Part shown: one piece after another, positions 1 to 28,291 of the stretch
How the letters are laid out: every line of letters starts with the position of its first letter
How positions within the stretch are numbered: the first letter of the stretch is position 1
Source of the DNA: Acidimicrobiia bacterium
Lineage (GTDB): Bacteria > Actinomycetota > Acidimicrobiia > Spongiisociales > JAHEDJ01
Length of the DNA stretch: 43,248 nucleotides
Reading direction: 5' to 3'
NCBI GenBank assembly: GCA_029210695.1
Contig: JARGFH010000031.1
Span: 1 to 43,248, forward strand
Made by a program: the position numbers and the translations under genes
Notes under the pieces: model-generated
The model's input: only the letters and a program-made list of their open reading frames with translations
What the model was told of the DNA's origin: nothing
The model's database searches: none

Positions 1-131
1 GCGTAGTAACCATCAGATTGGCAGAGCCCTCCTAATCAACCGGGAACCCCTACACCCCGCTCAATTCCGAAGCGCCCCTTAACTTCGCCTTTGCTGGCTG
101 GGGATGCCCCCCTCCCCTCGAAGACTCGGGA

Positions 132-154
132 CTCCCCCCACTGTGTGGGGGGAG
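132..154. other. GC-rich perfect hairpin downstream of the minus-strand gene pair
   Basis: A 10-bp perfect stem (132-141 with 145-154) closes on a 3-base TGT loop. It lies about 30 bp past the stop of the minus-strand propeller gene, so it could end that transcript. No T-run follows on the minus strand, so a classical intrinsic terminator is not proven. The rest of 1-185 shows no convincing gene. Confidence 0.5.
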
Positions 155-185
155 AACGCGGTGTTCGGCTTTGCTTGGCGGCCGG

Positions 186-920
186 TTACTTGCTCGGGTC
201 CCAGGTTCCTTCCGTGTAGCCGGGGATGAACCAGGAGGCCGGCGACCAGTTGTCCGAGTTATCGACGAGGATGCGGGGGTTCGGGTCGCCTTGAGCGGCG
301 AGGATGAGCACCCGTCCCTCGGAGTCTTGCACGAGGAGCCACTCTCCGTCTGGCGACCAGGTCGCCTGGTTGAACGAGTAGTCCTTCGGGCCCTCGACTT
401 CCAGGACCGTGCGATCGACACCGGTCGGGCTCTGCACCACAACGCGCGGTGTGCCGGGATCGAACTCCGTGTAGATCTCCGAACCATCGGGAGCGGTGTA
501 GAGGACCCGGCCGACGGGATCCCGCGGGGTTACCGTCTGATCGACCGATATCCGGTTGAGCGTTGTTCCGGTTTCGGGATCGATTACCCGGAACGTCTGC
601 GACTCACCTCGAAATTCCTGCACCAGCAGCATTCCCTCCGGCGTCCAACCCGGCAGAGGATCGGCGAATCCGATGTTGTTGTCACACAGCACCTCATGCG
701 GTGCTTCACCGCCGGCTGCATCGACCGTCCAGATGCATAGATCGCCGTTGTCCCATTGGCTGAAGGCCACGGTGCCGGGGATCGAGGGGTCCGGCTCGTC
801 CACCAGCGAAGCAAACGTTGGAAGCGGGATGATCGCGAAAGCCAGTACCAGTCCGACGACAACTCCGATTACGACCACCGACGCAATAACCGAAATCCAG
901 ACCTTGCGTGAGTCGGTCAT
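186..920 (-). CDS. Membrane-anchored TolB-like (PD40/WD40-type) propeller protein
   Basis: The protein has 244 residues. Residues about 7-32 form one hydrophobic segment (valine/isoleucine-rich), which looks like an N-terminal anchor or uncleaved signal, so the rest is probably outside the membrane. The remainder carries repeated motifs typical of TolB/PD40 beta-propeller blades, such as a WSPDGEWLLV stretch near residue 190 and W-x-P-x-G turns. At 244 residues it is too short for a full six-bladed TolB propeller. Its ATG overlaps the stop of the upstream DUF2157 gene by 4 bp (917-920), so the two are probably co-translated. Function is unknown; a link to the translation genes is not implied. 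Confidence 0.75.
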   Translation of the reverse strand: MTDSRKVWISVIASVVVIGVVVGLVLAFAIIPLPTFASLVDEPDPSIPGTVAFSQWDNGDLCIWTVDAAGGEAPHEVLCDNNIGFADPLPGWTPEGMLLVQEFRGESQTFRVIDPETGTTLNRISVDQTVTPRDPVGRVLYTAPDGSEIYTEFDPGTPRVVVQSPTGVDRTVLEVEGPKDYSFNQATWSPDGEWLLVQDSEGRVLILAAQGDPNPRILVDNSDNWSPASWFIPGYTEGTWDPSK

Positions 921-1885
921 GATGTCAACTCCTCCGGTTCATGGTCGGCCTCAGCGATGTCTTCCTTGATCTCACCCATCAGCCGCGCCAGCGCCACCGC
1001 GCCGCCGATCAGTGCTGCGCCGGAGAGGAGCAGTGCCACCGGCGCTCCGAGTGAATCCCCGAAGAAGTGGAACACCACCTGCGGAACGAAGATGAACACT
1101 CCGGCTGCACCGAGTCCGAGGAGCACGATCTGGCGTAGCGTGACGCTGGCCACGATCAGGGCTCCCGCCACCACCACGCCGAGGAGCAGAGGCCAGCCCT
1201 CTCCTGCAAACGACAACAGCTGAACGCCGAACAGCGAAGCGGTTCCCCCCAGCGCGTAGCCGGTGATCATCGGGCGGATCGCCGTACCCCAGGTGAGGAA
1301 CAGCCAGGCGGTCCCTACTGCCCACATCGTGATTCCGAAGAACTCGTCGGGCCACTCGAGCAATGCCACCGCCGGCACAGTCGCAGCCAGCACCGCAGCA
1401 AAGAACGCCAGTTGTTGAAGGCTCATGGTTCGGATCCGCCACAGGAAGAAGCCGAGGACACCGGCAACCAGGGCCCCCAGCGTCATCGACGCTTCGTCTA
1501 TCCAATCGAAACCGTCGGCAGACAGAATGCCGAATGTGAAGCCCGTGCCGACCACGGCGAACAACCACAAAAACCCGGCCAAGCGTCGGATCGCCACGAG
1601 GGGCGAATCGCGCAACATCCAGCCGGCAATGAGCAAACCAAGCGTCACGGTGCCGAGCAGAGCCAACCGGCCCCACAGCTCGAGGTCCGCCCAGAACTCC
1701 TGGGCGAGAATCAGCACTGCAATCACGGCCAGCGCTCCACCGAGGTAGCCGAGCGCTTCCACGATCAGTGGAATCCGGCGCTCCGGTGCGGCGGTTCGTG
1801 ACGCTTCAAATGTCCGGATTCGGGATGCTTGATCGTCGGTGATGAATCCGGCTTTCACCCAACGAGACAGTTGTTCTGACAGCAT
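917..1885 (-). CDS. DUF2157-family multi-pass membrane protein
   Basis: The protein has 322 residues. Residues 1-45 form a soluble N-terminal part (LSRWVKAGFITDDQASRI) typical of the DUF2157 domain, in which a short helix-rich cap precedes a membrane array. From about residue 45 to 305 there are roughly ten hydrophobic segments. The acidic tail (EADHEPEELTS) is probably cytoplasmic. The gene overlaps the downstream propeller gene by ATGA, forming a two-gene minus-strand operon. The biochemical role of DUF2157 is not established; nothing here specifies a substrate. Confidence 0.8.
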   Translation of the reverse strand: MLSEQLSRWVKAGFITDDQASRIRTFEASRTAAPERRIPLIVEALGYLGGALAVIAVLILAQEFWADLELWGRLALLGTVTLGLLIAGWMLRDSPLVAIRRLAGFLWLFAVVGTGFTFGILSADGFDWIDEASMTLGALVAGVLGFFLWRIRTMSLQQLAFFAAVLAATVPAVALLEWPDEFFGITMWAVGTAWLFLTWGTAIRPMITGYALGGTASLFGVQLLSFAGEGWPLLLGVVVAGALIVASVTLRQIVLLGLGAAGVFIFVPQVVFHFFGDSLGAPVALLLSGAALIGGAVALARLMGEIKEDIAEADHEPEELTS

Positions 1886-2030
1886 GTCTGCCTCCTATTC
1901 ACCTTCATCATCCCGCATACCAGCTCCCAGGACATCAGGGGCCGACCCTCACCGTCCCTCAGGGATCTCAGGGTCGTGCCACATGGTTCAGAGTGCTTCG
2001 TGCGGCTTTGCTCGAGCCTCGCCTTCCCGG

Positions 2031-2060
2031 TTACGGCCAATCGGCATCATTGGCTAATCT
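2031..2060 (+). promoter_or_regulatory. Candidate promoter for the tRNA-Tyr / tRNA-Thr / tRNA-Met / tuf unit
   Basis: A TAATCT box (2055-2060) lies 18 bp after TTACGG (2031-2036), about 33 bp before the tRNA-Tyr 5' end. The space between the boxes holds a 6-bp inverted repeat, GCCAAT (2036-2041) and ATTGGC (2049-2054), which might be an operator. The -10 box is good and the -35 match is only fair. Confidence 0.4.
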
Positions 2061-2092
2061 ATCGACGAGCCCGGCCCACGCCGGGCTTTGAT

Positions 2093-2174
2093 GCCGGGAT
2101 GCCCGAGCGGCCAAAGGGAGCAGACTGTAAATCTGCCGGCAATGCCTTCGGAGGTTCAAATCCTTCTCCCGGCA
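2093..2174 (+). tRNA. tRNA-Tyr (anticodon GTA)
   Basis: A class II tRNA. The acceptor stem GCCGGGA (2093-2099) pairs with TCCCGGC (2167-2173), with discriminator A at 2174. The anticodon stem-loop CAGA-CTGTAAA-TCTG gives GTA, followed by a long variable arm and a GTTCAAAT T-loop. No CCA is encoded. It is the first gene of the tRNA-tuf cluster. Confidence 0.95.
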
Positions 2175-2219
2175 CAGCAACGTTTACAATCCATGAGCAA
2201 CGGTCCTTGAGTACAGGCC

Positions 2220-2240
2220 GAGAAGTGCTTCGCACTTCTC
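2220..2240 (+). other. Spacer hairpin with a three-base loop between tRNA-Tyr and tRNA-Thr
   Basis: GAGAAGTGC (2220-2228) and GCACTTCTC (2232-2240) form a perfect 9-bp stem with the loop TTC. It could guide tRNA precursor processing; this is inference. Confidence 0.6.
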
Positions 2241-2245
2241 AAACG

Positions 2246-2269
2246 TGCCTGGGCCTAAGGGCCCAGGCA
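2246..2269 (+). other. Second spacer hairpin just before tRNA-Thr
   Basis: TGCCTGGGC (2246-2254) pairs perfectly with GCCCAGGCA (2261-2269) around a 6-base loop. It ends one base before the tRNA-Thr 5' end, so it may shape processing of the precursor. Confidence 0.6.
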
Positions 2270-2270
2270 T

Positions 2271-2343
2271 GCCCCCTTAGCTCAGCTGGCAGAGCGCCTC
2301 CATGGTAAGGAGGAGGTCTCCGGTTCGAATCCGGAAGGGGGCT
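2271..2343 (+). tRNA. tRNA-Thr (anticodon GGT)
   Basis: The acceptor stem GCCCCCT (2271-2277) pairs with AGGGGGC (2336-2342), with discriminator T at 2343. The anticodon arm CCTCC-ATGGTAA-GGAGG gives GGT. D-loop (AGCTCAGCTGGCAGAGC) and T-loop (GGTTCGAATCC) are canonical. No CCA is encoded. Confidence 0.96.
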
Positions 2344-2349
2344 CGGTAG

Positions 2350-2370
2350 GCGGTGAGCGCAGCTCACCGC
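2350..2370 (+). other. Three-base-loop hairpin after tRNA-Thr
   Basis: GCGGTGAGC (2350-2358) pairs perfectly with GCTCACCGC (2362-2370) across a GCA loop. It directly precedes the heptamer repeat at 2372. Confidence 0.6.
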
Positions 2371-2371
2371 G

Positions 2372-2406
2372 GTACCAGGTACGAGGCACCAAGTGCCAAG
2401 TACCAA
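2372..2406 (+). repeat. Heptamer repeat array H1 (GTACCAA type, 5 units)
   Basis: Five consecutive 7-bp units in perfect phase: GTACCAG, GTACGAG, GCACCAA, GTGCCAA, GTACCAA. It lies in the spacer between tRNA-Thr and tRNA-Met. The period is exact although the unit sequence drifts. Confidence 0.75.
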
Positions 2407-2426
2407 AGGAAGAGGGCGAAGCTGGT

Positions 2427-2469
2427 GCGGTTGGCATCGCCAACCGCCAACGGCTTGCGTAGCAAGCCG
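2427..2469 (+). other. Pair of three-base-loop hairpins before tRNA-Met
   Basis: GCGGTTGGC (2427-2435) pairs with GCCAACCGC (2439-2447) around ATC. CGGCTTGC (2451-2458) pairs with GCAAGCCG (2462-2469) around GTA. Both stems are perfect. They end 5 bases before the tRNA-Met 5' end. Confidence 0.6.
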
Positions 2470-2473
2470 CGGA

Positions 2474-2550
2474 GGCGGCGTAGCTCAGTCGGTAAGAGCG
2501 CTCGACTCATAATCGAGAGGTCGGCAGTTCAAGTCTGCCCGCCGCTACCA
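2474..2550 (+). tRNA. tRNA-Met, elongator (anticodon CAT), with encoded CCA
   Basis: The acceptor stem GGCGGCG (2474-2480) pairs with CGCCGCT (2540-2546), with a G-U at the first pair and discriminator A at 2547. The anticodon arm CTCGA-CTCATAA-TCGAG gives CAT. CCA is encoded at 2548-2550, unlike the other three tRNAs here. The anticodon stem lacks the three G-C pairs of an initiator and the first acceptor pair is not C-A, so it is not tRNA-fMet. A lysidine-modified Ile-CAT tRNA cannot be fully excluded. Confidence 0.9.
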
Positions 2551-2579
2551 AGTGAAGAACAGTACAAGGAGAGAATCCC

Positions 2580-3776
2580 ATGGGTAAGGCGAAGTTTGAG
2601 CGGACGAAGCCGCATGTGAATGTGGGGACGATGGGTCATATTGATCATGGGAAGACGACGTTGACGGCTGCGATTACGAAGGTGTTGTCGGAGTCTGGGG
2701 TTGGTGGGGCGACGGCGTTTACGGCGTTTGATGATATTGATAAGGCGCCGGAGGAGCGTGAGCGGGGTATCACGATTTCGATTGCTCATGTGGAGTATGA
2801 GACGGCGAATCGTCATTATGCGCATGTGGATATGCCTGGTCATGCTGATTACATCAAGAACATGATTACGGGTGCTGCGCAGATTGATGGGGCGATTTTG
2901 GTGGTGTCGGCGGCTGATGGTCCGATGCCGCAGACGCGTGAGCATGTGTTGTTGGCTCGTCAGGTTGGGGTTCCGTTCATTGTTGTGTATATGAATAAGA
3001 CGGACATGGTTGATGATGATGAGCTTCTTGATTTGGTTGAGTTGGAGGTTCGTGAGTTGTTGTCGGAGTATGAGTTTCCTGGTGATGAGTTGCCGGTGAT
3101 TCGTGGTTCGGCGTTGAAGGCGCTTGAGGGTGGGGATGAGGCTTCGGTTGCTTCGGTTATGGAGTTGATGGAGGCGGTTGATACGTATATTCCGGTGCCG
3201 GAGCGGGATACGGAGAAGCCGTTTCAGATGCCGATTGAGGATGTGTTCTCGATTACTGGTCGGGGGACGGTGGTGACTGGGAAGGTTGAGCAGGGGATTC
3301 TCAAGACGGGTACTGAGGTTGAGATTGTTGGGATTCGTCCGACGCGCAAAACGGTGGTGACCGGGGTTGAGATGTTCCGGAAGTTGTTGGATGAGGCTCG
3401 GGCGGGTGACAATGTTGGGTTGTTGTTGCGGGGGATTGGGAAGGATGATGTGGAGCGGGGTCAGGTGATTTGTATTCCTGGTTCGATTACTCCGCATACT
3501 GATTTTGAGGCGAATGTGTATGTGTTGACTCGGGATGAGGGTGGCCGGCATAACCCGTTTTTCCCTGGGTATCGGCCGCAGTTTTATTTCCGGACGACGG
3601 ATGTGACTGGGTCGGTGACGTTGCCTGAGGGTACTGAGATGGTGATGCCTGGTGATAACACGACGATGACGGTGGAGTTGATTAATCCGATTGCTATGCA
3701 TGAGGGTCGTGATTTCGCGATTCGTGAGGGTGGTCGGACGGTTGGTGCTGGTCGGGTCACCAAGATTCTGAAGTAA
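2580..3776 (+). CDS. tuf: Elongation factor Tu, copy 1
   Basis: The product is EF-Tu (398 residues), the GTPase that brings aminoacyl-tRNA to the ribosome. The G1 P-loop (GHIDHGKT) is near residue 19, the G3 DMPGH box near residue 84, and the NKTD box near residue 139; domains 2 and 3 follow. The ATG is preceded by AAGGAG (2566-2571). It lies directly behind three tRNAs, as E. coli tufB does. The gene appears base-identical to the second copy at 24891. Its codon use is extreme: nearly all third positions are G or T, with a couple of dozen C-ending codons and only one A-ending sense codon found (AAA at 3348). Neighbouring genes favour C and G. Confidence 0.98.
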
Positions 3777-3782
3777 GTGACC

Positions 3783-3804
3783 GGACGGGTCTGGTGGCCC
3801 GTCC
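3783..3804 (+). terminator. Hairpin after tuf copy 1 (weak terminator or processing site)
   Basis: GGACGGG (3783-3789) pairs with CCCGTCC (3798-3804) with an 8-base loop. No T-run follows, so it may only attenuate or stabilise the tuf mRNA. The same hairpin follows tuf copy 2 at 26094-26115. Confidence 0.5.
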
Positions 3805-3808
3805 GCTC

Positions 3809-3836
3809 GTACCGGGTACTGGGTACTGGGTACCGC
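3809..3836 (+). repeat. Heptamer repeat array H2 (GTACTGG type, 4 units)
   Basis: GTACCGG, GTACTGG, GTACTGG, GTACCGC in perfect 7-bp phase. It lies between tuf copy 1 and rpmG and belongs to the shared tuf repeat. Confidence 0.75.
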
Positions 3837-3862
3837 GAACGAGTGAAGCGAGAGAGCAAACA

Positions 3863-4024
3863 ATGCCAAGTGACAAGAGACCGGCCATCACGCTGGCTTG
3901 CGACGAATGTAAGCGTCGCAACTATGTGACGGTGAAGAGCAAATCGAACACCCGTGAGCGGCTGGCGCTCAAGAAGTACTGCCGCTGGTGCGGATCGCAC
4001 ACGCTGCATCGCGAACATCGCTGA
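3863..4024 (+). CDS. rpmG: 50S ribosomal protein L33
   Basis: L33 of the large subunit, 53 residues, normal for the family. Two zinc-type CxxC pairs (CDEC near residue 13 and CRWC near residue 40) mark the zinc-binding form. I chose the ATG at 3863 because it gives the canonical short protein; an upstream in-frame extension would read through the repeat. The purine-rich GAGAGAGCAAAC before it is a weak ribosome binding site. The order tuf-rpmG-dehydratase-tRNA-Trp-secE-nusG resembles the actinobacterial rpmG-had-secE region. Confidence 0.95.
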
Positions 4025-4167
4025 ACACGGGGCACGACCCCGACCCGCGGTGCTAGTTTGGCCGCAGGATTCCGCGGGCGGAACAAGCGGGGCCTGATTG
4101 AAGAAGGCGGGCGACATGCCTGCCTTCTTCGCGTCCGGTCGGGTGCAGGGAACTCCTCAGCGTCCAG

Positions 4168-4195
4168 GTGCCAAGTCCGAAGTACCGGGTACCCT
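4168..4195 (+). repeat. Heptamer repeat array H3 (GTACCGG type, 4 units)
   Basis: GTGCCAA, GTCCGAA, GTACCGG, GTACCCT in 7-bp phase, ending 8 bp before the preferred start of the dehydratase gene. It probably lies in that gene's 5' untranslated region. Confidence 0.65.
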
Positions 4196-4203
4196 CTTGG
4201 CCC

Positions 4204-5046
4204 ATGGGCATGGAAGAACTCCAGGGACGCGTATACCGGCGAAAGTTTCGGGCGGATCGTTCGACGATCTCGGCGTTCATCGAGGCGACCGGCGATGATC
4301 CTGCCCGCTGGCCGAACATCGCCCCACCGGGGCTGGCCGCCGCCGCGGTCTTCGCCGTCGCCCCGGCCTTTCTCTTCGACCCGGATGTCGGCGAGTTCTC
4401 GCGGATCCTTATTCATGCCGACCAAACATTCCGGTGGCTCGCTCCATGGGAGACCGGAGCCGACTACGCCGTCACCGGGACCGTCGATCGGGTGCGCATG
4501 CGAGGCGGAGCGGCGTGGGTGACCTTCTCGGTTGGAGTGGTAGCCGCAGGCAACCGGGTCCTCGATTCCACCTCAACGTTTGTCATGTCGGACCAGCGCC
4601 CCGACTCCGAGGTAGCGGAGCGAAACGAACCCGGTCCTCTCGAACGGGCAGACGAGATCCGTCCGGTTTCCTATCCATCCAGCGGGGAGTTGCCCGAAAC
4701 CGTCCGCTCGGCGAGCCGAGCCGATCTGATCCGGTACGCGGCTGCCAGTCGCGACTTCAATCCATTGCACTGGGATCACGAGACTGCCCGCAATGCCGGT
4801 CTGCCAGGCGTAGTGGTGCACGGCTTGCTCATGGCATCGTGGATGCTGCAAACCGCGACGGCGATCGTATTCCCGTCCGCTGGGCGGCCGATCCACGCCG
4901 CCAAGTTCAGGTTCCGCAACCCGCTCTTCCCCGGAGAAGCAGCTTCGATCACCGGTGCAATCGGCGCCGCACCGGGCCCGGTCAGTCTCGAACTCACATC
5001 CAATTCGGGACCGCTGGTCGGCGGCCTGATCACGGTGGAGCGGTAA
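4204..5046 (+). CDS. Fused double hot-dog MaoC/HadAB-like dehydratase
   Basis: The protein has 280 residues and two hot-dog folds. The N-terminal half (about 1-135) resembles the FAS1-type dehydratase domain of HadA. The C-terminal half (about 150-280) is MaoC-like, with the hydratase-2 motif around DFNPLH: Asp and His there are the expected catalytic dyad, and GVVVHG follows. In Mycobacterium separate hadA-hadB-hadC genes lie between rpmG and tRNA-Trp/secE and dehydrate 3-hydroxyacyl-ACP; here one gene seems to combine the two halves. The acyl substrate is not shown by the sequence. The start is uncertain: ATG at 4204 or 4210 avoids the heptamer repeat, and no clear Shine-Dalgarno is seen. 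Confidence 0.82.
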   Translation: MGMEELQGRVYRRKFRADRSTISAFIEATGDDPARWPNIAPPGLAAAAVFAVAPAFLFDPDVGEFSRILIHADQTFRWLAPWETGADYAVTGTVDRVRMRGGAAWVTFSVGVVAAGNRVLDSTSTFVMSDQRPDSEVAERNEPGPLERADEIRPVSYPSSGELPETVRSASRADLIRYAAASRDFNPLHWDHETARNAGLPGVVVHGLLMASWMLQTATAIVFPSAGRPIHAAKFRFRNPLFPGEAASITGAIGAAPGPVSLELTSNSGPLVGGLITVER

Positions 5047-5050
5047 CCCG

Positions 5051-5617
5051 ATGGAGAATCCAGAAGTCGAACCCGTCGACGAAGCACAGCTGATTCGGAC
5101 GGCTCAGGTCGGCGACAGAAGCGCATTCGAAGAACTGGTTCGAAGACATCAACACGGAGTATTCACCTTGGCTCTGCGACTGGTAAACGATCGGGAGTTG
5201 GCAGCAGACGTCACCCAGGATGCGTTCATCCGGGCCTGGCGCGGACTGCCGCGCTTCCGGGGTGATGCCGCCTTCAAGACATGGATTCATCGGATCACGG
5301 TGAACGCCGCATGGTCGATGAAGAAGCGCACCGGTCGCCACCTGGCCGTTCCTCTCGAGGGTGCTCCCCAGATCGCAGACAAGACGCTGTCGGGCGACCT
5401 CGAGCGAGCAGGGGAGAACCTCGAACTTCGCCACCGCCTGCGGGCTGCACTCGATGAGCTACCGCGTCCCCAGCGCACGGTTGTGGTGCTCAAGGACATC
5501 TACGGTTGGTCGCACGGCGAAATTGCTGAGTCGTTGGGTATCACCGTCACCGCCGCCAAGGTCCGCCTGCATCGCGCCCATCATCGGCTCCGCCAACACC
5601 TCGAAGGTGAATCATGA
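5051..5617 (+). CDS. ECF-type RNA polymerase sigma factor
   Basis: The protein has 188 residues, normal for group 4 sigma factors. Region 2 (about 20-90) has the FEELVRRH start, the DVTQDAFIRAW core-binding helix and F-K-T-W-I-H-R. Region 4 (about 125-180) has the LPRPQRTVVVLKD and GWSHGEIAESLGIT helix-turn-helix that reads the -35 element. Regions 1.1 and 3 are absent. The gene overlaps the next by ATGA (5614-5617), and that gene encodes a zinc anti-sigma factor, so this is a coupled regulator pair. Its position inside the rpmG-secE cluster is unusual; its signal and targets cannot be told. Confidence 0.92.
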   Translation: MENPEVEPVDEAQLIRTAQVGDRSAFEELVRRHQHGVFTLALRLVNDRELAADVTQDAFIRAWRGLPRFRGDAAFKTWIHRITVNAAWSMKKRTGRHLAVPLEGAPQIADKTLSGDLERAGENLELRHRLRAALDELPRPQRTVVVLKDIYGWSHGEIAESLGITVTAAKVRLHRAHHRLRQHLEGES

Positions 5618-5961
5618 AGGGCATGCTCGCCCGGGAGTGCAAGCGGGTCAGAGGGCGGATCAGCGAAGTCGTGCTCGGCGATGAGCGGCTGTCGGTTGAG
5701 GACGAACGACATGCGGCGGCCTGCCTTTCTTGCCAGGCAGAGATTGCTCGCTACAGAGCCATCGACCGCGCTTTCATCGCTTTGCAGCAGGAGGTTGCCA
5801 TCGCCCCACCCGGGTTGGTGAGCAAGATCATGGCGGGGCTCGATCGCCCGCCCATCCCATGGTTTCGTCGCCCGGGCACCGTCTCGGTGTCGGCAATGTC
5901 GGCCGTTGCTGTGGCGACCACGGTGGCCCTCGCCATTCGTCGCCGCCAGGCAGCAGCTTGA
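5614..5961 (+). CDS. Zinc-binding anti-sigma factor, single-pass membrane protein
   Basis: The protein has 115 residues. An H-x3-C-x2-C motif (HAAACLSC, residues about 33-40) is the signature of zinc-containing anti-sigma (ZAS) domains. A hydrophobic segment near residues 92-109 precedes a short basic tail, so it probably sits in the inner membrane with the zinc domain inside. There is almost no extracytoplasmic part, so sensing must occur in or near the membrane or through a partner. Overlap with the sigma gene supports coupled synthesis and stoichiometric inhibition. Confidence 0.85.
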   Translation: MKGMLARECKRVRGRISEVVLGDERLSVEDERHAAACLSCQAEIARYRAIDRAFIALQQEVAIAPPGLVSKIMAGLDRPPIPWFRRPGTVSVSAMSAVAVATTVALAIRRRQAAA

Positions 5962-6013
5962 TGCCGGAGCCGGCCGGCACTCTCGGCGTACTCATGCCGG
6001 AATCCGGCCACAC

Positions 6014-6041
6014 GTTGTGCGATGTACGTAGTACGTTGTAC
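6014..6041 (+). repeat. Heptamer repeat array H4 (GTAGTAC type, 4 units)
   Basis: GTTGTGC, GATGTAC, GTAGTAC, GTTGTAC in exact 7-bp phase, in the spacer between the anti-sigma gene and tRNA-Trp. A small GGAGC-AAA-GCTCC hairpin follows. Confidence 0.65.
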
Positions 6042-6122
6042 ACGTGGAGCAAAGCTCCGCGGCCCGGCTTTACACTGGAGTCTGACGCTCCGTATACTTG
6101 CGCCACCGTCCGAACCCCCCAT

Positions 6123-6198
6123 AGGGGTGTAGCTCGAAGTTGGTTAGAGCGCCGGTCTCCAAAACCGGAGGTTGGGGGTTCGAGTCCCTCCACCCCTG
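6123..6198 (+). tRNA. tRNA-Trp (anticodon CCA)
   Basis: The acceptor stem AGGGGTG (6123-6129) pairs with CACCCCT (6191-6197), with discriminator G at 6198. The anticodon arm CCGGT-CTCCAAA-ACCGG gives CCA; the T-loop GGTTCGAGTCC is canonical. Its place just before secE is widely conserved. No CCA tail is encoded. Confidence 0.96.
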
Positions 6199-6226
6199 CT
6201 GAGAAACCCGAGGAACAAAGAAGATC

Positions 6227-6532
6227 ATGAACCGAGAGATGCGCCGGCTCCAAGAGGCCGAGGACCGACGAGCGAAGAAGCGGGGGCGCGCCCCGCAGAA
6301 GCGTCGACCCAAGCAGAGCACCGGCGAGAAGAAACCGCTCTGGAAACGTCTCGCGACGTTCCTCGGTGAAGTGAGGATCGAACTGCATCGGGTGTCCTGG
6401 CCGACCCGATCGCAGATGGTTGCGTTCACGTCCGTAACTCTGATCACCTCGACGGCCGTCACGCTCTATGTTTTCGGCCTCGACTTCGGCTTCGGCGAAG
6501 CGATTCTCTGGCTGCTCAAGCGAGGATCGTAA
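6227..6532 (+). CDS. secE: Preprotein translocase subunit SecE
   Basis: SecE stabilises SecY in the Sec translocon. The protein has 101 residues: a basic, arginine/lysine-rich cytoplasmic region (about 1-40), the conserved amphipathic helix with VRIELHRVSWPTRSQM, and one membrane helix (about 65-90). This is the short single-helix form. It sits between tRNA-Trp and nusG, whose start follows 2 bp after the stop. Confidence 0.95.
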   Translation: MNREMRRLQEAEDRRAKKRGRAPQKRRPKQSTGEKKPLWKRLATFLGEVRIELHRVSWPTRSQMVAFTSVTLITSTAVTLYVFGLDFGFGEAILWLLKRGS

Positions 6533-6534
6533 CA

Positions 6535-7242
6535 ATGACAATTGCAGAGACACCTGAAGAGACTCCGGTCGAGACCACTGCTCCGGCCGCCGAAGAAACC
6601 GCAGTAGCGGCCGCCGGCGCGGTTGCCGTTGTTGAGGAGAGCCCGGCAGAGTCAGATCCGGTTGACGAGACCGTCCTCGAAGAAGAGGAGCCCTTGAGCC
6701 CGTTCGATTTGCCGGGCGATTGGTATGTTGTCCATTCCTACTCCGGTTACGAGAACAAGGTGAAGGTAAACCTCGAGACTCGCTCCAAGTCGATGCACAT
6801 GGAGGATCGGATCTACGAAGTTGCCATCCCGATGGAAGACGTCGTTGAGATCAAGAACGGCAAGAAGGTCACCGTCCCGCGGAAGATGTTCCCCGGCTAC
6901 ATCCTCGTGCGCATGCACCTCGACGACGACTCCTGGTACGGGGTGCGGAACACTCCAGGGGTCACGGGGTTCGTCGGATCGGCCAACAAGCCGGTTCCGT
7001 TGTCCCGGCGTGAAGTCGAGCGATTTCTCGGAGTCAAAGAAGAGGAAGACAAGAAGGCGCCTCGCTACAAGCCCTCATGGGAGATCGGCGACAGCGTTCG
7101 TGTACAGACGGGGCCATTCGCCGACTTCAACGGAGTCATCGAGGACATCAACCTCGATCAGTCCAAGGTCGTCGTGCTCGTCAACATCTTTGGTCGGGAC
7201 ACTCCGGTCGAGTTGAACTTCGAGGACATCATCAAGAACTAG
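6535..7242 (+). CDS. nusG: Transcription termination/antitermination factor NusG
   Basis: NusG binds the RNA polymerase clamp and links it to Rho or the ribosome. The protein has 235 residues. Residues 1-60 are an alanine/glutamate/threonine-rich acidic extension. The NGN domain follows (WYVVHSYSGYENKVK, then FPGYILVRM), and the C-terminal KOW domain begins near residue 180 (GDSVRVQTGPFADFNGVI). Such N-terminal extensions are common in actinobacteria. secE-nusG-rplK is the standard order. Confidence 0.96.
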   Translation: MTIAETPEETPVETTAPAAEETAVAAAGAVAVVEESPAESDPVDETVLEEEEPLSPFDLPGDWYVVHSYSGYENKVKVNLETRSKSMHMEDRIYEVAIPMEDVVEIKNGKKVTVPRKMFPGYILVRMHLDDDSWYGVRNTPGVTGFVGSANKPVPLSRREVERFLGVKEEEDKKAPRYKPSWEIGDSVRVQTGPFADFNGVIEDINLDQSKVVVLVNIFGRDTPVELNFEDIIKN

Positions 7243-7277
7243 GTACCAAGTACCGAGTACCAGTACTGGGACCAAGT
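7243..7277 (+). repeat. Heptamer repeat array H5 (GTACCAA type)
   Basis: GTACCAA, GTACCGA, GTACCAG, then TACTGGG and ACCAAGT, beginning at the base after the nusG stop. The spacing is 7 bp throughout, although the unit frame shifts by one base in the last two. Confidence 0.65.
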
Positions 7278-7315
7278 CTTCGTAGGCCTGGACCACTCAA
7301 TGCATAGGAACCAAC

Positions 7316-7744
7316 GTGGGTAGAAAAAAACTGAGTACCGTCTTGAAGCTGCAGATCCCGGCCGGGCAGGCCAGCCCCGCCCCTCCGGTGGGTCCTGCGC
7401 TCGGCCAGTACGGTGTCAACATCATGGACTTCGTCAAGGCCTACAATGAGGCTACGGCGTCGCAGATTGGGACAATCGTTCCGGTCGAAATCTCGATCTA
7501 CGAGGATCGGACGTTCACATTCGTCACCAAGACGCCGCCCGCCGCGGTGTTGCTGCGCCAGGCGGCGCGGATCGAGAAGGGCTCGCCCGAGCCGCAAACC
7601 ATCAAGGTCGGAAAAGTGACTCGCGCCCAGGTGCGCGAGATCGCGGAGACGAAGATGGTCGACCTCAACGCCAACGATGTTGATGCAGCCATGAAGATCG
7701 TCGAGGGCACGGCCCGTTCCATGGGTCTTTTGGTCGAAGGCTAG
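7316..7744 (+). CDS. rplK: 50S ribosomal protein L11
   Basis: L11 forms the GTPase-associated centre of the 50S subunit with 23S rRNA. The protein has 142 residues, the normal length, with the proline-rich N-terminal domain ([28 protein letters not shown]) and the C-terminal RNA-binding domain. The start is GTG at 7316, with AGGAACC upstream; it gives the canonical N-terminus. nusG precedes it and rplA follows. Confidence 0.97.
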
Positions 7745-7838
7745 GAACCCTCGACCGGGATGAACAGCGGCGCGACTGCGTGCCGGAAGATGGGAGGTTT
7801 CGCACAAGGCGGAGCCGTTCGAACCACAGGAGAGAGAC

Positions 7839-8555
7839 ATGCCCAAGCACGGCAAGCGATATCGGGATCTGGTACAGCGGTATGACAAAGAGACCGCCTA
7901 CTCCCCGGAAGAAGCCATCGAGTTTGTTCGGATGTTCGCAGATGCGAAATTCGACGAGAGCATCGACGTAGCCTTCAAACTCGGAATCGACCCCCGGCAG
8001 GCAGATCAGATCGTTCGTGGAACTGTCAGCCTTCCTCACGGCACGGGCCAGGTGGTGCGCGTGGTCGTGTTCGCGCAGGCGGATAAGGCCCGCGAGGCCG
8101 AAGCCGCCGGTGCCGACCTGGTCGGGGGTAGCGAACTCGCCGAAGAGATCGCAGGAGGACGGGCTCTCGACTTCGACATCGCCATCGCTACTCCGGACAT
8201 GATGGCTGAGGTCGGGAAACTCGGGCGGGTGCTGGGCCCTCGGGGCCTGATGCCGAACCCCAAGGCCGGAACCGTGACGGTGGATGTCGCCAGAGCGGTT
8301 CAGGAGTTCAAATCCGGCCGCATCGAGTACCGCAATGATCGATTTGGCAACGTCCAGGTTCCGATCGGCAAAGCGTCGTTCGAAGCCGAAGCGCTCGTGA
8401 CGAACCTCGGCGCCTTGGCCGCCGAACTTCAGCGAGTTCGTCCCGCCTCCGCCAAGGGCCGCTATTTCCGTCATCTTGCCATCTCGTCGACGATGGGCCC
8501 CGGGATCAAGATCGACCCGGCTCGCCTAGAAGATCTCGTCAAGGCGAGTAAATAG
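7839..8555 (+). CDS. rplA: 50S ribosomal protein L1
   Basis: L1 forms the mobile stalk near the E site and in many bacteria represses the L11 operon. The protein has 238 residues, and the signature [18 protein letters not shown] is near residue 128. An AGGAGAG ribosome binding site precedes the ATG. The 94-bp spacer from rplK is the place where an L1 autoregulatory site is usually found, but I cannot identify one with certainty. The stop codon TAG overlaps the first unit of a heptamer array. Confidence 0.97.
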
Positions 8556-8589
8556 TCGCGGGTCGCTAGTCGCGGGTCGCGGGTCAATC
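8555..8589 (+). repeat. Heptamer repeat array H6 (GTCGCGG type, 5 units)
   Basis: GTCGCGG, GTCGCTA, GTCGCGG, GTCGCGG, GTCAATC in exact 7-bp phase. The first unit starts on the last base of the rplA stop codon. Confidence 0.75.
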
Positions 8590-8617
8590 GAAGGGCGGCC
8601 GAACCCGGCCGCCCTTC
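8590..8617 (+). terminator. Strong hairpin after rplA, probable terminator of the L11 unit
   Basis: GAAGGGCGGCCG (8590-8601) pairs perfectly over 12 bp with CGGCCGCCCTTC (8606-8617) around an AACC loop. Only a short pyrimidine stretch (CTGCTCCG) follows, not a T-run. It is flanked by heptamer arrays H6 and H7 in opposite orientation. Confidence 0.65.
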
Positions 8618-8633
8618 CTGCTCCGTGCTGATA

Positions 8634-8682
8634 CTCGCGACTAGTAACTCGCGACTAGGAACTAGCAACTCGCGACTAGGGG
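8634..8682 (+). repeat. Heptamer repeat array H7 (CTCGCGA/CTAGNAA type, 7 units)
   Basis: CTCGCGA, CTAGTAA, CTCGCGA, CTAGGAA, CTAGCAA, CTCGCGA, CTAGGGG in perfect phase. The nine bases CGCGACTAG occur three times and are the reverse complement of CTAGTCGCG in array H6. Confidence 0.8.
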
Positions 8683-8992
8683 CGGAGAGCGAGGGGGTTC
8701 CGCTGAGAGCGCCGATGCTGCTCGGGCGGCGCCGGGGCCGGGGCCGGCGACTGCGGGCTGCAGTCGCCGTGGGTCACCCTCGCTGCGACGCTGTCAGGGT
8801 AGGGGCTGCACGCGTCGCCGGGTATACCCGGGCCGATCTCAGTTGCGGGCGAGGGCGGTCAGGTCAACCCACCCGTCGTTACGAAACCCCCTTCGGGTGT
8901 CTCTCCGTGTTGGCACTATCGCGCATATGCCGCAACTTGGCTAGCGGAAACTCGGTGCGTGACGCGGATCGCGCGGATAGAGAAGTTGCGGC
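8683..8992. other. Long spacer before the L10 leader, no convincing gene
   Basis: I see no supported coding sequence. It holds a 9-bp hairpin (GGCGACTGC at 8746-8754 with GCAGTCGCC at 8760-8768) and a 14-bp palindrome CCGGGTATACCCGG (8818-8831). Open frames crossing it are GC-driven and lack homology signs. Confidence 0.5.
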
Positions 8993-9055
8993 GTCGCGAG
9001 TCGCGGGTCGCGAGTGGCTGGTGCGTGCCCGCGACTCGCGACGAGTAACTCGCGA
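8993..9055 (+). repeat. Heptamer repeat array H8 with orientation switch (9 units)
   Basis: Nine 7-bp units in unbroken phase: GTCGCGA, GTCGCGG, GTCGCGA, GTGGCTG, GTGCGTG, then CCCGCGA, CTCGCGA, CGAGTAA, CTCGCGA. Bases 8993-9007 are the exact reverse complement of 9028-9042, so transcription across it would give a 15-bp hairpin with a 20-base loop. It lies just upstream of the rplJ promoter candidate. Confidence 0.8.
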
Positions 9056-9068
9056 CGATTCTGACAAC

Positions 9069-9097
9069 TTGCTGTTCCCAACAGGAGGGCGTACGCT
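9069..9097 (+). promoter_or_regulatory. Candidate promoter for rplJL-rpoBC
   Basis: TTGCTG (9069-9074), a 17-bp spacer and TACGCT (9092-9097, fitting TANNNT). It is about 150 bp before rplJ, leaving room for the L10 leader. The spacing is ideal and the -35 match is partial. Confidence 0.55.
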
Positions 9098-9104
9098 CCG
9101 TGCC

Positions 9105-9215
9105 AACAACTCCAACCTCGGTTCTGAGACCGCCGGTGCCTTCGGGCTCAAAGGGTTCGCCCGCCTGCGTAGACCGCCTCCCACAGGGGTCCCCGTCTCA
9201 TCATGACCGAGGGAC
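9105..9215 (+). promoter_or_regulatory. Probable L10(L12)4-binding leader of rplJL
   Basis: The untranslated stretch between the promoter candidate and rplJ has the look of a ribosomal protein L10 leader: GAGACCGCCGG near 9126, CCTTCGGG near 9138, GCCCGCCTGCG near 9160, then a GACCGAGGGACCTTTT stretch that may act in attenuation. In many bacteria the L10-L12 complex binds such a leader to repress its own operon. The boundaries are approximate and I could not fold it by covariance model. Confidence 0.5.
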
Positions 9216-9243
9216 CTTTTCTAATGTGAGGAGGAGTACGCGT

Positions 9244-10053
9244 ATGCCGAGACCTGAAAAGGTCCAAGCAGTTGAAGAAATCAAGGAGCGTCTCGAGAAC
9301 TCTGAGGCGACCTTCCTGGCCGAGTACCGGGGACTGTCCGTGTCCGAGCAGCAGCAGCTGCGTCGCGGATTGCGGGCTGCAGATGCCGAGTACAAGGTTG
9401 TGAAGATGTCGCTGGCCCGCCGCGCCGCGACCGAACTCGGACTCGATGAACTCATCGAGTCGATGCACGGGCCGACGGCGCTTGCGTTCGCGAATTCGGA
9501 TGCGGTTCCGGTTGCCAAGGTTTTGAAGGACTTCGCCAAAGAGCACGATCGTCTCGTGCTCAAAGTTGGTCTGATGTCCGGCAAGCTCTTGCCGCCGGAA
9601 CAGGTGAGCAAGCTCGCCGAAATCGAACCGCGCGATGTCTTGCTCGCCAAGATTGCGGGAGCTGCCAAGGCGCCGCTCAGCAAGATGGCAGGCATGCTCG
9701 GGTCGTTTGTGCGGGATTCCGCTTCGTTGTTCTTCCAACTGCTCGAGATAAAAGAATCGAGTGAACCGGCGCCGGCCGCTGAAGTCGAGGCACCCGCCTC
9801 GACAGACCGGGTCGAGGCTGCTGCCGACCCCGCCGAGGTTTCCGCTCCGGCAGACAAGGCCGAAGTCGCCGAAACGACGACCGATGAAGCAGCCGAGGGC
9901 GAGGAGCCCACAGCTGAAGTTGATCAGACCCATTCGGCCGAGGCAGAACTTGCCGAAGCCGGCGAAGGTCCCGAGGAAGAGGCCGAGTCAGACGACGAGT
10001 CCGATTCCGACTCCCAAAATGATGACAAGGCCGACCAGGCCGAGGAGGAGTAA
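9244..10053 (+). CDS. rplJ: 50S ribosomal protein L10 with a long acidic C-terminal extension
   Basis: L10 anchors L7/L12 dimers to the stalk. Residues 1-172 are a normal L10: [15 protein letters not shown] at the start, a globular rRNA-binding domain, then the C-terminal helix for L12 (about 140-172). Residues 173-269 are extra: low-complexity sequence rich in alanine, glutamate, proline and aspartate, with no cysteine or aromatic residues. L10 is usually 165-180 residues. The start at 9244 follows GAGGAGTACGCGT. Other proteins here (RpsC, RplD, NusG) carry similar extensions, so a lineage trait is likely. Confidence 0.95.
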
Positions 10054-10055
10054 AC

Positions 10056-10439
10056 ATGGCAAAGATGACTACCGACGACCTCTTGGGTGTCTTCGAGGAG
10101 ATGACGGTCCTCGAGCTCAAGGAGTTCCTCGATGCCTTCGAGGAGAAGTTCGATGTGACTGCCGCCGCGCCCATGGCGATGGCCGCCGTCGCTGCCGGAG
10201 GCGCCGATGCTGTTGCCGAAGAGGAGCAAGATGAGTTCAGTGTCTTCCTCGTTGCAGCCGGCGACAAGAAGATCCAGGTGATCAAAGAGGTCCGCGCACT
10301 CACGAGCCTCGGGCTCAAAGAGGCGAAAGAACTCGTCGACAACGCCCCCAATGCGGTGCTCGAGGGTCTGGACAAGGAAACAGCAGAGAAGGCGAAAGAG
10401 AAACTCGAGGGCGCAGGCGCCACCGTGGAGCTCCGGTAG
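10056..10439 (+). CDS. rplL: 50S ribosomal protein L7/L12
   Basis: L7/L12 is the multicopy stalk protein that recruits translation GTPases. The protein has 127 residues: an N-terminal dimerisation helix pair (1-33), an alanine/glycine-rich hinge (about 40-60), and the C-terminal domain from about 61 with [24 protein letters not shown]. Length and order are normal. The start lies 2 bp after the rplJ stop. Confidence 0.97.
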
Positions 10440-10445
10440 CGGTGT

Positions 10446-10468
10446 CTCGGGACGCTCTGCGTCCCGAG
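10446..10468 (+). other. Hairpin with three-base loop directly after rplL
   Basis: CTCGGGACGC (10446-10455) pairs perfectly over 10 bp with GCGTCCCGAG (10459-10468) around TCT. A second similar hairpin, GTTCGGGC-TTC-GCCCGGAC, follows near 10477. They may protect the 3' end of rplL mRNA. Confidence 0.55.
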
Positions 10469-10521
10469 CTTTGGAGTTCGGGCTTCGCCCGGACATCCCC
10501 TGCCTTCGCTGCAACGTATTT

Positions 10522-10555
10522 CGAGAGGGGCCGTCCGGAAGGGCGGCCCCTCTCG
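10522..10555 (+). terminator. rplL-rpoB intergenic hairpin, likely attenuator or RNase III-type site
   Basis: A 15-bp stem (10522-10536 with 10541-10555, one G-T pair) is closed by a GGAA tetraloop. It lacks a T-run (TTGCTCC follows). In E. coli the same position holds a partial terminator and an RNase III site that set rpoBC below rplJL; the location suggests an equal role, by inference. Confidence 0.6.
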
Positions 10556-10689
10556 TTGCTCCTCGCGACGACTCCGGGGATCTCGCTATCCAGTACTTGA
10601 ATACCCTTGACCATGCGACCATCAATTCGATACACTTCCCGGGAAGGGGCCGCGGTACAGCACCGCGGATAATTGATTGTTTTTCCGCC

Positions 10690-10718
10690 TTGTAGGCAGG
10701 GCTAGCGCGTGCTATCCT
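10690..10718 (+). promoter_or_regulatory. Candidate rpoBC promoter
   Basis: TTGTAG (10690-10695), a 17-bp spacer and TATCCT (10713-10718), about 54 bp before the rpoB start. It would let rpoBC be transcribed separately from rplJL. Confidence 0.6.
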
Positions 10719-10771
10719 GCTGTTTCGCCGTTTCGAGATATCCATCCCTAGGGTCATAAGGAGGCTCGCCG

Positions 10772-14155
<3,384 letters not shown>

Positions 14156-24890: not shown

Positions 24891-26087
24891 ATGGGTAAGG
24901 CGAAGTTTGAGCGGACGAAGCCGCATGTGAATGTGGGGACGATGGGTCATATTGATCATGGGAAGACGACGTTGACGGCTGCGATTACGAAGGTGTTGTC
25001 GGAGTCTGGGGTTGGTGGGGCGACGGCGTTTACGGCGTTTGATGATATTGATAAGGCGCCGGAGGAGCGTGAGCGGGGTATCACGATTTCGATTGCTCAT
25101 GTGGAGTATGAGACGGCGAATCGTCATTATGCGCATGTGGATATGCCTGGTCATGCTGATTACATCAAGAACATGATTACGGGTGCTGCGCAGATTGATG
25201 GGGCGATTTTGGTGGTGTCGGCGGCTGATGGTCCGATGCCGCAGACGCGTGAGCATGTGTTGTTGGCTCGTCAGGTTGGGGTTCCGTTCATTGTTGTGTA
25301 TATGAATAAGACGGACATGGTTGATGATGATGAGCTTCTTGATTTGGTTGAGTTGGAGGTTCGTGAGTTGTTGTCGGAGTATGAGTTTCCTGGTGATGAG
25401 TTGCCGGTGATTCGTGGTTCGGCGTTGAAGGCGCTTGAGGGTGGGGATGAGGCTTCGGTTGCTTCGGTTATGGAGTTGATGGAGGCGGTTGATACGTATA
25501 TTCCGGTGCCGGAGCGGGATACGGAGAAGCCGTTTCAGATGCCGATTGAGGATGTGTTCTCGATTACTGGTCGGGGGACGGTGGTGACTGGGAAGGTTGA
25601 GCAGGGGATTCTCAAGACGGGTACTGAGGTTGAGATTGTTGGGATTCGTCCGACGCGCAAAACGGTGGTGACCGGGGTTGAGATGTTCCGGAAGTTGTTG
25701 GATGAGGCTCGGGCGGGTGACAATGTTGGGTTGTTGTTGCGGGGGATTGGGAAGGATGATGTGGAGCGGGGTCAGGTGATTTGTATTCCTGGTTCGATTA
25801 CTCCGCATACTGATTTTGAGGCGAATGTGTATGTGTTGACTCGGGATGAGGGTGGCCGGCATAACCCGTTTTTCCCTGGGTATCGGCCGCAGTTTTATTT
25901 CCGGACGACGGATGTGACTGGGTCGGTGACGTTGCCTGAGGGTACTGAGATGGTGATGCCTGGTGATAACACGACGATGACGGTGGAGTTGATTAATCCG
26001 ATTGCTATGCATGAGGGTCGTGATTTCGCGATTCGTGAGGGTGGTCGGACGGTTGGTGCTGGTCGGGTCACCAAGATTCTGAAGTAA
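24891..26087 (+). CDS. tuf: Elongation factor Tu, copy 2
   Basis: EF-Tu (398 residues) in the classical str operon position, 13 bp after fusA, with AAGGAGGG (24876-24883) as ribosome binding site. The protein is identical to copy 1 at 2580. The third codon position is again almost always G or T. The upstream fusA and downstream rpsJ use mostly C and G, so the composition change is sharp at both ends. Apart from its ribosome binding site, the 5' flank differs fully from copy 1. The start is fixed by this site and by the repeat edge. Confidence 0.98.
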
Positions 26088-26119
26088 GTGACCGGACGGG
26101 TCTGGTGGCCCGTCCGCTC

Positions 26120-26147
26120 GTACCGGGTACTGGGTACTGGGTACCGC
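26120..26147 (+). repeat. Heptamer repeat array H2b (copy of H2)
   Basis: The same four units as at 3809-3836 (GTACCGG, GTACTGG, GTACTGG, GTACCGC), carried in the tail of the second tuf repeat, between tuf and rpsJ. Confidence 0.75.
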
Positions 26148-26170
26148 GAACGAGTGAAACGAGAGAGCAA

Positions 26171-28255: not shown

Positions 28256-28291
28256 GCAGCTGAGCGCTGCGAAGCAGAGCGAGGCTGAGTC

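Follow-up and report, generated by a model that had tools for sequence, protein, structure and literature searches.

What process gives the spacers of one bacterial tRNA operon a series of hairpins with the same form and unrelated sequences? The window analysed here, a whole stretch of 43,248 nucleotides, is one entire contig of a G+C-rich draft genome (G000; 3.91 Mb, 181 contigs, 97.9% complete) with 48 tRNAs and ribosomal operons. Judging by the named neighbours of its EF-Tu, its order probably falls within Acidimicrobiia. On the + strand of the window, tRNA-Tyr (gta, 2093-2175), tRNA-Thr (ggt, 2271-2344) and tRNA-Met (cat, 2474-2550) are followed by tuf, the gene for EF-Tu (2580-3776), and the only Rfam matches within positions 1-11000 are four tRNAs. 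A sequence-only reading had taken the hairpins of positions 2220-2469 as a sign either of some mutational process that recurs, for instance template switching, or of selection for RNA processing signals.

Hairpins of the window

Between tRNA-Tyr and tRNA-Met there are four perfect stems of 8-9 bp with three-base loops, as that reading had described; these and the other hairpins of the window are given on the + strand. The stems at 2220-2240 (loop TTC, which reads GAA on the opposite strand), 2350-2370 (loop GCA) and 2427-2447 (loop ATC) have 9 bp and a closing C-G pair. The fourth, at 2451-2469, has 8 bp and the loop GTA, begins 3 nt (CAA) past the 2427-2447 hairpin, with which it forms a doublet, and ends 4 nt 5' of tRNA-Met. 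C-G-closed loops of the type GNA, or its complement TNC, are found at 2220, 2350 and 2451, that is, in three of the four triloops, and 2427 has ATC. At 2246, where a six-base loop had been proposed, the structure is a perfect 10 bp stem with the four-base loop TAAG (2246-2269), ending 1 nt 5' of tRNA-Thr; the six-base version leaves an inner C-G pair open. Another hairpin with a four-base loop (CCAC, 8 bp stem, 2068-2087) stands 5 nt 5' of tRNA-Tyr.

The further examples listed by the sequence-only reading were also found. A perfect 10 bp stem with the loop TGT (132-154) is a copy of a dispersed repeat, and a perfect 10 bp stem with the loop TCT (10446-10468) follows rplL. Near 10477 there is an imperfect hairpin with a TTC loop (core CGGGC-TTC-GCCCG, by eye), and an imperfect stem with one mismatch and a GAA loop precedes rplB (28264-28280, GCGCTGC-GAA-GCAGAGC, partly by eye). 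The loops ATC, TCT and TGT of the window are outside the GNA/TNC type. Perfect triloop stems of at least 8 bp are also present in coding regions of the window, at 23509, 24059 and 35323.

Intrinsic terminators are likewise perfect, G+C-rich spacer hairpins, but the 2220-2469 hairpins have no T-run, and more tRNAs and tuf follow them on the same strand. The 8 bases after 2240, 2269, 2370, 2447 and 2469 contain 1, 2, 1, 1 and 0 T, respectively. This count of 0 to 2 T speaks against intrinsic terminators, in agreement with the earlier reading.

Stem excess and loop types in spacers

A census of perfect stems was made in 1,243,016 bases of G000, of which 88.5% were coding according to script-predicted genes and 140,360 were spacer. 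This sample and the larger one used below cover 1.24 or 1.50 of the 3.91 Mb, mainly the longest contigs, with spacers set by a home-made gene finder. Spacers held 34 stems of at least 8 bp with loop 3, compared with 2.8 in dinucleotide shuffles, and 40 with loop 4, compared with 2.6. Loops of 5, 6, 7 and 8 bases gave 8, 7, 6 and 8 stems (total 29 vs 8.4; about 2 each expected). Coding sequence held 41 stems with loop 3, compared with 23.5 in codon shuffles. The stem excess is genuine, bound to spacers, and equal for loops 3 and 4. The expectation that such stems would exceed what composition predicts, and would do so in spacers, was thus borne out. The idea of a constant three-base loop held in part: loop 3 is enriched, but loop 4 is as enriched, with many terminator-like members, and the loop sequence is not arbitrary.

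Perfect inverted repeats in spacers, usually with 4-nt loops, are common in bacteria (PMC13155455). In our sample, the 74 spacer hairpins with loop 3 or 4 include terminator-like hairpins near gene ends, a dispersed repeat that includes the 132 hairpin, terminator-like hairpins after tRNAs and the tRNA-spacer hairpins. Several tRNAs of G000 are followed, 0-3 nt after the 3' end, by hairpins with AAACCCC...GGGGTTT arms (C6:37291, C7:46626, C12:8879, L267), which from their sequence look like terminators whose T-run has been absorbed by the stem.

The loop signature became apparent with stems of at least 7 bp. The spacers of G000, 173,331 bases in this sample, held 70 triloop stems, compared with 12.1 in shuffles; the loop was GNA or TNC in 44 of the 70 (13 of 121 in shuffles), and the closing pair was C-G in 51. 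Because the 132 repeat family inflates the count of 44, we used distinct arms, among which GNA/TNC made up 23 of 44 (binomial p 1e-11). The coding triloops of G000 were at chance level (14/126). In G010, a genome of the same order (400 kb sampled), the signature was found in 70 of 84 spacer triloops (5.1 expected in all) and in 26 of 30 distinct arms, 81 of the 84 were C-G closed, and coding triloops gave 13/39. A sample of G001, which belongs to the same genus as G000, had 16 triloops vs 4.1, just 6 of them GNA. With the same script, loop 4 led in 200 kb of E. coli (19 vs 2.3; GNA 1/8), and a triloop excess was absent from 150 kb of a Rhodococcus plasmid (2 vs 4.8; GNA 1/2). In 80 tuf loci from diverse bacteria, coding sequence included, GNA/TNC loops numbered 3 of 74.

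DNA minihairpins of the type d(GCGNAGC) are extraordinarily stable, and GCGAAGC melts at 78 C (PMC4686876; Hirao, Yoshizawa). Most spacer triloops of G000 and G010 share with them the GNA loop or its complement, the C-G closure and often a second G-C pair. The minihairpin described in that source is known from chemistry and aptamers; in our genomes it shows up as a statistical feature of the spacers, read from sequence. DNA folding energies did not separate GNA from its complement; the folding model has no GNA bonus, and the energies were left unused.

GNA triloops and tetraloops also differ in where they lie. In codirectional spacers, GNA was on the sense strand in 22 cases and on the antisense strand in 36 (p 0.087), so that there is no clear strand preference. 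Of 45 tetraloops (stems of at least 8 bp), 26 lay no more than 60 nt past the end of a gene, compared with 5 of 26 GNA triloops (p 0.003). Among the GNA triloops, a T-rich tail (T>=4) followed 1 of the 26 in G000 and none of the 43 in G010. Single mismatches in the sense strand, in a hand count that excluded 22 stems with other mismatches, were G-U rather than A-C by 12 to 4 in tetraloops and by 3 to 6 in triloops, a difference that is suggestive only (Fisher p 0.087). Two hairpin classes can be told apart by their loops and positions and, with less certainty, by their mismatches: one with 4-nt loops, terminator-like, and one with 3-nt GNA loops.

RNA folding and turnover of the tRNA-operon spacers

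The gene order Tyr-Thr-Met-tuf recurs in relatives within the order, and its spacers vary: many genomes have short spacers with no perfect hairpins and others have several hairpins. In G020, the Thr-Met spacer (L302, 275 nt) contains GGAGTTYGGC hairpin units, about four in number, with a CCGAAGGGTCGCGTCGACACAT linker that is repeated. Distinct spacers of the relatives were clustered to representatives, which removed 11 of 39 Tyr-Thr and 7 of 40 Thr-Met spacers as similar, and were folded in sense and antisense against their own dinucleotide shuffles. Among the 33 Thr-Met representatives, which are separated by the clustering alone and, as relatives, are not independent, the mean z was -3.07 in sense and -2.14 in antisense (p 1.1e-5), with z below -1.5 in 27 and 18 cases, respectively. 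With the same reservation, the 28 Tyr-Thr representatives gave -1.92 and -1.14 (p 5.8e-4). Neither control showed a difference of this kind: the 60-120 nt 5' of tRNA-Tyr (29 of 39) gave -0.22 vs -0.27 (p 0.7), and random 45-mers from codirectional spacers of G000 (55 of 60) gave -0.24 vs -0.44 (p 0.13). The stronger folding of the sense strand comes chiefly from G-U pairs, and therefore points to RNA. Sense-strand structure is kept in the inter-tRNA spacers while their sequences are mostly unrelated, which supports selection for RNA hairpins. The suggestion of selection for RNA processing signals is thus upheld as regards folding in the spacers of this operon across the order, and the processing role itself is a conjecture. 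Pairing of a leader with the tRNA end is reported to hamper RNase P on precursor tRNAs (PMC9433436), and insulation of the tRNAs would therefore be a natural role for the spacer hairpins.

The sequence of G001 is about 92% identical to the window and collinear with it. The stems at 2350, 2427 and 2451 are the same in both genomes and two of the three loops are altered, GCA to GCG and ATC to ATT, with the 2451 hairpin identical; the hairpin 5' of tRNA-Tyr also has the same stem and an altered loop. The Tyr-Thr and rplL-rpoB spacers of G001 consist of other sequence and have no clear arm in common with those of G000. Other hairpins are present in the Tyr-Thr spacer of G001, namely GGAGAATCG-GTTGG-CGATTCTCC in place of the 2220 hairpin and an unrelated hairpin in place of 2246-2269, and the sequence replacing the 10446 hairpin is unrelated to it. 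Eight triloop hairpins could be compared. Five have stems without any change in 88 positions, and 5 of their 15 loop positions differ; of the other three, the 10446 and 2220 hairpins are replaced, and one that follows tRNA-Glu is rebuilt by paired changes. In the eight together, 26 of 150 stem, 10 of 24 loop and 95 of 400 flanking positions differ. Insertion boundaries, sought between the window and G001 and for 23 G001 loci in 1.5 Mb of G000, amounted to the two replacements only, with no target duplication.

Replacement is also seen further afield, where a G010 spacer is replaced in its orthologous positions in G030, G017 and G050, with little alignable sequence. G001 and G006, which belong to different families, have GGAGAATCG...CGATTCTCC in common in the same place, and their second hairpins differ. 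The view that stems are unrelated and the form constant was right for the tRNA spacers, where the four triloop hairpins have one copy each in 1,497,490 bp of G000, but overlooks that the hairpin at 132 is a copy from a repeat family.

This family made a test of paired changes possible; the test covers the 132 family, and the tRNA-spacer hairpins have no copies. Its core is YCTCCCCC...GGGGGAGR, flanked by GACTCGG / AACGCG or similar, and it has at least 13 copies. Across 13 copies, 99.3% of 139 cells were paired. Changes on both sides occurred in 6 of 11 pairs (18 cells), and one-sided changes numbered 0; if change had gone via G-U steps, some one-sided states would be expected. On the RNA side, the tRNA-operon spacers of G105 and G115 differ, by eye, in paired changes and one G-U.

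Origin of the hairpins

In some relatives, similar hairpins are dispersed and strung together. A search of 119 genomes of the order for GGAGTTN{4,13}AACTCC gave 63 hits in G010 (control 3), 47 in G092 (0), 35 in G017 (0), 34 in G073 (4), 32 in G050 (3) and 28 in G043 (3). G030, which belongs to the genus of G010, had 2 (3), G000 had 7 (7), and most genomes had fewer than 10. None of 24 genomes behind the named loci came near the higher counts, the highest count being that of an 11.8-Mb Streptomyces with 16 hits (control 8). Of 26 close pairs of hairpins in G010, 15 are separated by exactly 3 nt, the same layout as in the 2427-2469 doublet. At C3:54533-55349, C3:156388-157061 and C4:8379-9325 (within L375-L394), G010 has strings of as many as nine triloop hairpins, which draw on a handful of stems (GGAGTTRC, GCAGTTGC, GCAACCC, GCCGGGC and GGAACGC) and have the 3-nt linkers CAA, TAA or CTA on one strand or the other.

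These strings recall REPs. According to the GTAG/CGTC superfamily description (PMC3733652), both are short extragenic palindromes with short loops that occur in strings and dimers, but REP loops are TY/CMA and those found here are GNA. No GTAG/CGTC tag stands beside the stem in the 13 copies of the 132 family that were aligned, and by eye GTAG precedes only 2350. The Y1 transposase domain PF01797 was found in 0 of 5 genomes of the genus and in 0 of 15 genomes including G010, with 5 of 14 control genomes positive. We rejected REP/RAYT mobility on the absence of PF01797 from these 5 and 15 genomes; CGTC REPs are themselves said to have no associated transposase (PMC3733652). The tRNA-spacer hairpins were rejected as REP elements on copy number, since each is unique in the 1,497,490 bp searched; the 132 hairpin does have copies.

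The reading that we favour, with a probability of about 0.5, combines RNA hairpins acting between tRNAs with a DNA fold-back process that supplies their perfect form. The hairpins between tRNA-Tyr, tRNA-Thr and tRNA-Met would be co-transcribed with the tRNA-tuf operon and act as RNA. Folding on themselves beside the tRNA ends, they would stop leaders and trailers from pairing with the tRNAs, and processing enzymes could then cut. Their perfect, tight form would derive from a DNA process active in the spacers of this lineage, in which a strand turning on a C(GNA)G minihairpin might fold back during replication and copy its own arm. In a single step, such copying would make or mend an inverted repeat with perfect pairing, and stems would therefore be replaced, or altered on both sides together, with the form kept. 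In some relatives, the products would have been multiplied as REP-like strings, and for G010 and others an added spreading process would be needed.

Perfect stems can be the product of template switching, and loops that are stable in DNA are over-represented where compensatory changes are instantaneous (PMC8794818). Fold-back template switching as proposed there agrees with the loop type, the lack of strand preference and the paired changes, and we consider it the best account of the genome-wide triloops: the GNA signature and the paired changes are observed, and the fold-back we infer from them. Perfect stems, paired changes and DNA-stable loops are common to both data sets, but the hairpins reported in that source are in RNA genes, mainly rRNA, and the loops enriched at compensatory changes have 4 nt and not 3 nt, which counts against the comparison with our spacer triloops. 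It also counts against template switching that no single-arm ancestral state was found and no event could be reconstructed, and the replacements in the Tyr-Thr and rplL-rpoB spacers of G001 could equally be explained by recombination or insertion. The mutational part of the sequence-only reading thus gains from GNA on either strand, C-G closure and paired changes genome-wide, but no event was caught. The chance-level GNA share in coding sequence of G000 is a further difficulty, as the process, if mutational, leaves no trace there; purifying selection may remove GNA triloops from genes. The low GNA share in G001, the non-GNA/TNC loops of the window, the many genomes of the order with short spacers and no perfect hairpins, and the non-independence of the relatives weigh on the same side.

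It is rather unlikely that ordinary RNA elements alone (terminators, attenuators and processing signals) are sufficient, with perfect pairing and tight loops reflecting selection for strong hairpins. The sense-strand folding of the tRNA-operon spacers across the order agrees with this, as do the tetraloops of G000, which show the 4-nt peak general in bacterial spacers (PMC13155455), lie near gene 3' ends and favour G-U over A-C mismatches in sense, and the terminator-like AAACCCC/GGGGTTT hairpins after several tRNAs. The GNA triloops behave differently in position, T-rich tails and, suggestively, G-U to A-C ratio, and show no clear sense bias; selection on RNA also fails to account for GNA turns on both strands, or for their lack in E. 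coli and Rhodococcus. An origin from mobile REP-like families moved by some enzyme, with the tRNA-spacer copies as diverged or rare members, is unlikely. It would account for the few stems that recur in dozens of places in G010 as strings with 3-nt spacers, for their near absence from G030 of the same genus, for the at least 13 copies to which the 132 hairpin belongs, and for the GGAGAATCG...CGATTCTCC shared in one place by G001 and G006. It is at odds with the PF01797 result, with the single copies of the four tRNA-spacer triloop hairpins in 1.5 Mb of G000, and with the boundary search, which revealed neither an insertion boundary nor a target duplication. In a G+C-rich draft of 181 contigs, one might suspect chance, base composition or an artefact of assembly, but these can hardly be the explanation, with spacers 12-fold above dinucleotide shuffles and little excess in coding sequence, three hairpins with the same stems in the separately assembled G001, and no triloop excess in Rhodococcus with the same script.

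The combination of RNA hairpins and DNA fold-back invites a wider but tentative proposal, with the odds somewhat against it. This Actinomycetota lineage may have a class of spacer elements defined by a three-letter DNA turn and not by sequence: perfect 7-10 bp C(GNA)G hairpins, single or in strings 3 nt apart, which would be made, kept perfect and spread by transposase-free fold-back synthesis and recruited by selection as ready RNA hairpins between tRNA genes. Perfect spacer inverted repeats (PMC13155455) and REPs (PMC3733652) are already known. We found no report, in the open-access literature searched, of GNA triloops that form a class lacking REP tags and transposase, or of tRNA-tuf spacer hairpins whose form is kept amid sequence turnover. 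The repetitive and double hairpin elements of mitochondria (PMC2800124) resemble ours in adjacent hairpins, conserved stems, free loops, rapid turnover and the lack of a known enzyme, but they are organellar, with other loops and spacing, whereas the genome studied here, with its tRNAs and ribosomal operons, is bacterial.

Mutations come singly, and how RNA stems originate and remain paired under them is an open question, for which template switching was proposed from RNA-gene data. Genomes with GNA-marked spacer triloops beside an operon that keeps the hairpin form would allow a direct test of this proposal in sister strains, and offer a hint of a possible route to new RNA structures. They would also add to the REPs a kind of bacterial palindromic repeat without REP tags and transposase. 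Even if the mechanism is wrong, the description is useful in separating 4-nt terminator-like from 3-nt GNA hairpins.

Two other features of the window concern the same spacers and tuf. A degenerate heptamer run of the RGTRCCA type lies between hairpins at 2371-2406 (partly by eye), with further runs at 3811-3834 and 8570-8586, and the same places differ in G001; degenerate tandem heptamers (RGTRCCA, TCGCGGG, ACTCGCG and ACCTAGA types) are over-represented in spacers genome-wide. The codons of tuf at 2580-3776 are, by eye, strongly G- and T-ending compared with those of neighbouring genes. A second tuf copy at 24891-26087 encodes an identical protein, and the spacers 3' of the two copies (3777-3859 and 26088-26170) are 98.8% identical, a sign of gene conversion extending past the gene.
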